Assembly (NCBI GenBank): GCA_963669155.1
Contig: OZ022596.1
Location: forward strand, 19,952,828-20,016,827
Direction of reading: 5' to 3'
Length of the DNA stretch: 64,000 bases
Origin: Arbacia lixula
Lineage: Eukaryota > Echinodermata > Echinoidea > Arbacioida > Arbaciidae
In this document: piece after piece, positions 3,704 to 63,294 of the stretch
How positions within the stretch are numbered: the stretch's first letter is position 1
Layout of the letters: every line of letters starts with the position of its first letter
Notes under the pieces: generated by a model
Told to the model about the DNA's origin: nothing
The model's input: the letters and a program-made list of their open reading frames with translations, nothing else
Databases searched by the model: none
Position numbers and translations under genes: made by a program

Positions 3704-3809
3704 GCTGCTGTGGGACGATGCCACCACCAACAAGTCCTTTGAGGCTCTGGCTCAGGCCTTCCACTCCAGCTTCAACAAGCAGGACCACTTCAAGGTTGGC
3801 TCCTCTCTG
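3704..3809 (+). CDS. CNOT11: CNOT11 exon: early N-terminal domain
   Basis: 106 bp. The acceptor CAG ends at 3703 after a long pyrimidine tract, and the donor is CTG|GTGAGT. After one base of a split codon it encodes 35 residues from [15 protein letters not shown] to FKVGSSL, which match the FEGLSTAFHHYF..DHFRLGS region of the family. It ends in phase 0. Its last 21 bases and the donor are the first unit of the 54-bp array that fills the next 2.2 kb. Confidence 0.88.

Positions 3810-63294: not shown

Follow-up and report, generated by a model that had tools for sequence, protein, structure and literature searches.

The window analysed here is a stretch of 64,000 nucleotides of the sea urchin Arbacia lixula (C21:19952828-20016827), located on a chromosome-scale contig of 20,139,220 bases, at a distance of 122-186 kb from its end. 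Three genes were recognized in it. The protein read from the exons of the first, CNOT11 (Table 1), aligns over 411 residues to a solved CNOT11 chain and is 90% identical to the CNOT11 of Diadema. This gene is single-copy: searches of the whole genome (606,990,701 bases, 590 contigs) gave 13 protein matches, all at this locus, and exon-end copies of the array at 12427-13003 appear among them as extra matches. The second gene codes for a cysteine-rich protein; taken singly, its exons gave Kazal and Dickkopf-like matches under the threshold, and its joined exons matched no Pfam family. For the third, neither a search with its 321-aa frame nor Pfam gave a family or a homologue.

Tandem arrays cover 30% of the window, compared with 5.9% of 200 kb of random sequence (20 stretches of 10 kb each, sampled randomly within 0.1-19.9 Mb of C1-C20; hereafter the interior). 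Short telomere-like repeats rich in TTAGGG/AACCCT are present at 264-342 and 49798-49837, in keeping with a place near the chromosome end. An 11-bp array (ATAGGATAAGG, 129 copies) occupies 26772-28189, and a minus-strand frame at 49029-49613 with a zf-RVT match slightly under the cut-off is probably the remnant of a LINE.

Eight arrays at exon edges had been listed in the first-pass annotation, and all eight were found at their positions by TRF and by direct reading. In every one the exon edge sits in the exon-side unit, and both 5' and 3' exon boundaries are affected; the unit holds the edge together with its splice site at seven splice junctions, the eighth case being the stop-codon end of CNOT11. 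Exon 6 of CNOT11 and the exon ends at 30703 and 59426 were called automatically by a self-trained exon finder, while the putative acceptor at 57062, which had neither an automatic call nor a homologue, is based on splice signals and an open frame. Direct reading confirmed that the arrays extend solely toward the non-coding side. Their consensus units are unrelated by eye and their periods range from 37 to 115 bp; they lack the shared unit that the spread of one mobile or satellite repeat would leave, and the earlier view of a recurrence at exon edges by unrelated repeats is borne out.

Table 1. Genes, exons, tandem arrays and duplications at the locus (window coordinates)
Feature	Position	Strand	Relation to exon edge or other detail
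CNOT11	3704..19972	+	ten exons, listed without the N-terminal coding start; four splice-junction arrays and a stop-codon array
CNOT11 exons 1-5	3704-3809, 6331-6465, 6952-7062, 7682-7851, 10733-10865	+	
CNOT11 exons 6-10	12286-12492, 13162-13311, 14467-14571, 18376-18426, 19802-19972	+	
54-bp array, 41 units	3789..6022	+	unit 1: last 21 bp of CNOT11 exon 1 and donor 3809/GTGAGT
Two-copy 128-bp duplication	6804..6961	+	over CNOT11 exon 3 acceptor (6951/6952); junction recurrence scan, 90% identity over 30 bp
37-bp array, 33 units	7825..9040	+	unit 1: last 27 bp of CNOT11 exon 4 and donor 7851/GTAATA
39-bp array, 23 units	10882..11778	+	begins 16 bp into the intron past CNOT11 exon 5 donor; junction outside the array
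75-bp array, 3.3 units	12063..12310	+	last unit: CNOT11 exon 6 acceptor (AG 12284-12285) and exon start
115-bp array, 5 near-identical units	12427..13003	+	unit 1: last 66 bp of CNOT11 exon 6 and donor 12492/GTATCA
55-bp array, 5 units	14597..14865	+	begins 25 bp past CNOT11 exon 8 donor
60-bp array, 9.1 units	19917..20459	+	unit 1: last 53 coding bp of CNOT11 and stop (19970-19972); continues downstream of the stop
56-bp array, 55 units	30687..33773	+	unit 1: last 17 bp of an exon of the cysteine-rich gene and donor 30703/GTAAGT
104-bp array, 2.8 units	56791..57076	+	last unit: putative acceptor 57062/57063 and exon start
41-bp array, 62 units	59406..61944	+	unit 1: last 21 bp of the exon and donor 59426/GTTAGT
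NWD1-like NACHT/WD gene	74461-93660 (L025-L031 joined)		four donor arrays and one acceptor array
NWD1-like donor array, 93 bp x 6	76074		
NWD1-like donor array, 47 bp x 5	83887		
NWD1-like donor array, 38 bp x 48	88694		
NWD1-like donor array, 97 bp x 2.6	91044		
NWD1-like acceptor array, 42 bp x 12	ends 92261		acceptor 92259

Based on comparison with homologues, the CNOT11 edges at 3809, 12285 and 12492 give gap-free joins against the solved CNOT11 chains, Diadema and other CNOT11 proteins. The edge at 7851, in a less conserved stretch, is gap-free against Diadema and is followed within a few residues by a one-residue gap against the solved chains. The stop-codon unit encodes the CNOT11 C-terminus, whose final residues are largely common to Diadema. 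Gap-free joins identify the exon-proximal unit (the first for donors, the last for acceptors) as the functional edge, and the claim that this copy is the working junction held wherever homologues permit the comparison, in CNOT11 as well as in a flanking gene described below. The protein homology implies that each mRNA would carry one exon-end copy, the first donor presumably being the one used.

The duplication at 6804-6961 had been missed by both TRF and the first-pass annotation. A pyrimidine-rich 40/116-bp array at 3117-3673 ends 30 bp ahead of the exon 1 acceptor of CNOT11, which looks like an amplification of the polypyrimidine tract itself.

The right flank (30 kb) opens with 5 kb of N (64001-69000) immediately past the window end and contains an NWD1-like gene with NACHT and WD repeats according to Pfam, whose Lytechinus homologue is 72% identical across 66% of the query. 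All three echinoderm orthologues compared join exactly at 88694 and 91044; at 76074 two of them do, and the third has one extra residue. At 83887 the exon end aligns and is followed in the gene model by 12 unaligned residues; at 92259 one residue falls in a split codon in comparison with the three orthologues. In the array that ends at this acceptor, GG replaces AG in 7 of the 12 upstream units, as counted from the printed units. A duplication at the donor 79763, where the exon is ill-defined, was left out of the array counts and was counted as repeat-bearing in the curated donor-strength comparison. The phenomenon had been ascribed to three unrelated genes; it is present in them but extends further, to this fourth gene beside the window and to random stretches of the genome.

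The repeated donors are mostly intact. In eight of the nine donor arrays most units keep GT: 40/41 (54-bp array), 33/33 (37-bp array), 5/5, 62/62 (41-bp array), 6/6, 5/5, 44/48 and 2/2. An exception in donor strength is the 56-bp array, which speaks against a reading by tolerance: in the 44 units that a motif search located, no later donor scores as high as that of unit 1. Splicing at the second donor would lead to a stop in five of the nine arrays and to a shifted open frame in four. It could be supposed that the additional 5' splice sites are functional, boosting U1 recruitment, slowing splicing or regulating the genes, and the intact state of most copies would suit this, as would the weaker repeat-bearing donors of the curated C21 set (median 3.8 versus 6.3, P = 0.04). 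However, units within the donor arrays match each other at 83-98%, a similarity at which intact donors require no selection; repeat-bearing donors were not weaker in the interior (P = 0.46), and one array carries weakened donors in its extra units. A function of this kind is considered very unlikely. A weak donor as a precondition for array formation was likewise rejected, having been seen solely in the curated C21 set and not in the interior.

The number of edge-spanning arrays expected by chance was estimated by dropping one seed unit per array randomly into the array-collapsed sequence, with exons from the self-trained finder or from curated sets, which include exons sought because arrays stood there. 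(The curated end of CNOT11 exon 5 was set at 10867 instead of 10865 in this test, with no effect on the arrays.) With automatic exons, 7 of the 28 window arrays span an edge against 0.89 expected (P = 4e-5), one of them at a doubtful minus-strand exon (39223-39362) that is counted among the automatic hits in the TRF and junction scans. With curated exons the figures are 8 against 0.94 (P = 2e-5), a post hoc value because the window was chosen for this feature. CNOT11 alone has 11 arrays, five of them edge-spanning (1.11 expected, P = 0.003). No significant excess was found among the 19 arrays of the right flank (2 versus 1.97 with automatic exons; 4 versus 2.50, P = 0.23, with curated exons) or the 26 arrays of the 200-kb interior (1 versus 1.97), and the seven arrays of the left flank include no edge-spanning one (0.12 expected). 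Arrays that approach an edge to 40 bp or less but do not span it numbered 5 in the window (0.71 expected), 3 in the right flank (1.35), 0 in the left flank (0.04) and 3 in the interior (0.77). This one-seed null took the place of an earlier one that placed whole arrays uniformly, under which C21 had 6 versus 2.58 and the interior 1 versus 2.08, or 8 versus 1.61 and 1 versus 1.61 when exon thresholds were lowered and the overlap rule tightened. The proposal that splice junctions are preferred start points for tandem duplication is not upheld by these counts, being close to expectation in the right flank and the interior, and as an argument from TRF arrays alone it was set aside as unproven.

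A more sensitive scan took 12 exon and 13 intron bases at each predicted junction and searched the intron side, up to 300 bp away, for a recurrence at 80%. Tandem copies were detected at 6 of 41 interior donors and at none of 41 acceptors, where shuffled introns gave an expectation of 0.00. When only first copies of non-exonic 25-mers were taken as background (2.05%), 0.84 was expected (P = 1.8e-4), and decoy GT sites gave 3/346. Many of the predicted interior exons have weak donors, and some are probably false. Each of the six shows a tandem duplication whose copies are offset by 100-276 bp; the gapped alignments extend over about 95-230 bp at 73-86% identity and cover the whole offset in three cases and part of it in three. 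They aligned as two copies, with TRF counts of 2.6-3.0 in two. In four the exon matches a Pfam domain (Helicase_C, Ion_trans, FMN_dh and, below cut-off, IMD), a fifth lies in an exon that we take to be DNAJC1-like, and the last in an exon without support of its own. In the FMN-dependent dehydrogenase exon (L021:9079-9500) the last 106 bp and the donor are duplicated 255 bp downstream. In the interior the profile peaks at the donor, with 6/41 at positions 0 and +12, 1-4 of 40-41 from +24 to +108, and 0-1 at -60 and from +120 onward except for 2/39 at +216. The outcome varied with the settings, which were picked after the interior stretches had been drawn: with 30-mers within 220 bp the count was 4/41 (P = 0.004) at a threshold of 80% and 2/41 (P = 0.12) at 85%, and within 300 bp the junction 25-mers gave 6/41, exon-only 25-mers 3/41 and 30-mers 5/41. 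This small random sample suggests that donor-side junction duplication is frequent in this genome.

These figures, together with the excess in the window, would suit the view that donor junctions are, besides being tolerant, preferred starting points of duplication, with co-transcriptional R-loops, U1 or a polymerase that pauses at exon ends as conceivable causes. One bias must be considered, as selection on the exon copy slows its divergence and keeps the duplicated pair visible for longer. With exon bases masked, the interior retained 3 donor-edge clusters against 1.12 expected (P = 0.10) and 1 acceptor cluster, compared with 6 donor and 3 acceptor clusters against 0.73 in the window and 2 and 1 against 1.32 in the right flank. 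A scan confined to the first 110 bp of the intron gave 8/41 donors, 2/39 acceptors and 59/600 random positions in the interior (donor versus random P = 0.06, donor versus acceptor P = 0.09), and 10/28, 7/29 and 83/600 in C21 (P = 0.004 and P = 0.39). At the donor level the interior junction scan is significant, but the excess weakens to P = 0.06-0.10 once the bias of exon conservation is removed. Searches of the whole genome for three closely spaced exact consensus donors gave 5 matches, in two arrays, versus 12 for a reversed control, and 14 matches in about five arrays versus 110; the control figures count matches, not arrays. Consensus-donor triplets in only about five arrays indicate that the high-copy form with consensus donors is rare, which also speaks against preferred initiation. 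Two of these arrays, G000:C335:1693-1947 (41-bp) and G000:C7:21668227-21668575 (about 42-bp), are candidate junction arrays. Preferred initiation at donors is on balance rather doubtful. Its stronger formulation, that about one in seven donors has a tandem exon-end copy in its intron, that donor junctions are hot spots instead of merely permissive, and that acceptors are largely spared, can be put forward only tentatively.

The difference between donors and acceptors was seen in both data sets. Junction 25-mers recurred at 6/41 donors versus 0/41 acceptors in the interior (P = 0.026; P = 0.013 to 0.24 under other words or exon thresholds) and at 7/29 versus 1/29 in the C21 region, or 13/70 versus 1/70 when pooled with the window included (P = 0.001). 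The conservation bias bears equally on the two sides of this junction-level comparison. In the intron-only scan of C21 given above, donors and acceptors lie closer together (10/28 and 7/29). Acceptor-side duplications do occur, four of them in the C21 region (12285, 57062, 92259 and 6952), with few units or partly decayed sites in the acceptor arrays. Donors account for most of the edge effect, and the density goes in part with the position near the chromosome end. It is improbable that an array-dense chromosome end with exon-rich genes accounts for everything by coincidence, with edges struck at the rate of any other sequence. The location and array cover of the window would agree with that, as would the near-expected TRF counts in the right flank and the interior. 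So would the plain recurrence of interior junctions (4/83), which resembles that of random 30-mers (5.4%); the latter comparison was discarded as a sign of no effect, its background having counted every copy. Coincidence is nevertheless opposed by the post hoc window P, the pooled donor-acceptor asymmetry and the interior first-unit test (P about 2e-4).

The reading that we consider most probable is that the arrays are 'mirages': ordinary tandem duplications tolerated at donors through use of the 5'-most donor and amplified in an array-rich chromosome end. Slippage or unequal exchange would make short tandem duplications throughout the genome. Where the unit spans a donor, the new copies would fall downstream and, to judge from the anatomy of the arrays and from human F7, the 5'-most donor would be used; with this donor in use the mRNA would be unchanged and the duplication nearly neutral. 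The arrays are probably harmless since the splicing machinery takes the first copy. Extra copies of a unit spanning an acceptor would lie upstream and compete as earlier AGs, and would mostly be removed or left with broken copies, and duplications within exons would be removed. The two-copy duplications may then grow to tens of copies in the array-rich chromosome end, where the density is observed and the process is proposed. The human F7 gene is subtelomeric (13q34). As neutral tolerance predicts a background rate at donors, the interior and window excesses mean that tolerance alone may fall short.

An origin of the arrays as assembly artefacts is exceedingly unlikely. No evidence in favour was found, the 5 kb of N directly after the window being the one feature of note. 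Units within arrays differ from each other, similar anatomy occurs at random genomic places, and the assembly of this species is HiFi-based, as described in the excerpted text of its genome paper (607.91 Mb, 22 chromosome-scale scaffolds and a 15,740-bp mitochondrion; PMC11310861), which makes artefacts in arrays of 0.3-3 kb unlikely.

Junction-linked minisatellites in amphioxus, mentioned in the first-pass annotation, have indeed been published. Mirages are described there in Adh3, troponin C, the globins BflGb6 and BflGb9, and PGBD5; the excerpted reports give length variation and RT-PCR, and state that splicing is regular despite repeated splice signals (PMC3087553, PMC3902484). As in the sea urchin, minisatellite-like units (periods of 10-160 bp in those excerpts) span the intron-exon boundary on both the 5' and 3' sides. 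The present case differs in concerning an echinoderm, in arrays of up to 62 units and in the four junction arrays plus stop end of one gene; the donor bias and the rate estimate from random stretches go beyond the amphioxus cases. Intron 7 of human F7 contains several 37-bp repeats, the first of which is the site of the mutation c.859+5G>A, and oriented scanning is given in the excerpted paper as the reason why only the most upstream donor, in the first repeat unit, is normally used (PMC6627357). In the sea urchin the homologue joins fit unit 1 at the tested donors by protein comparison; F7 is one locus in one gene. Variable internal tandem repeats of human segmental duplications are also minisatellites at exon-intron boundaries and can alter splicing and create introns, but they lie in recent paralogues and are often retained in exons, and the excerpted text makes no mention of a donor bias (PMC2812944). 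The Rogers model of intron gain via tandem genomic duplication, as cited in the excerpted PMC3087553, likewise duplicates a segment with splice signals, whereas in the sea urchin existing introns are lengthened. Literature searches restricted to open-licence papers found no report of mirages in a sea urchin. As far as we have seen, earlier cases had not come from this phylum, reached these copy numbers or included a stop-codon end, and neither a donor bias nor a rate from random sequence had been given for them.

If genome-wide, the duplications would provide many natural tests of donor choice by a spliceosome faced with near-identical sites, and a measurable supply of duplicated splice sites as a source for intron gain. 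The donor-acceptor asymmetry is a simple signature of selection that can be checked in any annotated genome. Gene predictors should be used here with the warning that exon ends are repeated within introns. Were the hot-spot interpretation true, exon 3' ends would steadily supply decoy donors, make introns grow, give rise to minisatellites near chromosome ends and provide material for new introns.

The mitochondrial contig (C590, 15,740 bases) was also read, and its gene order and code are those of an echinoderm and led to the rejection of amphioxus as the source. Frames were assigned by reading and 12S was placed by position, giving the echinoid order 12S, tRNA cluster, ND1, ND2, 16S, COX1, ND4L, COX2, ATP6, COX3, ND3, ND4, ND5, ND6 (minus strand) and CYTB. 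Compared with known sequences, COX1 reads as conserved only when AAA is taken as Asn and ATA as Ile.
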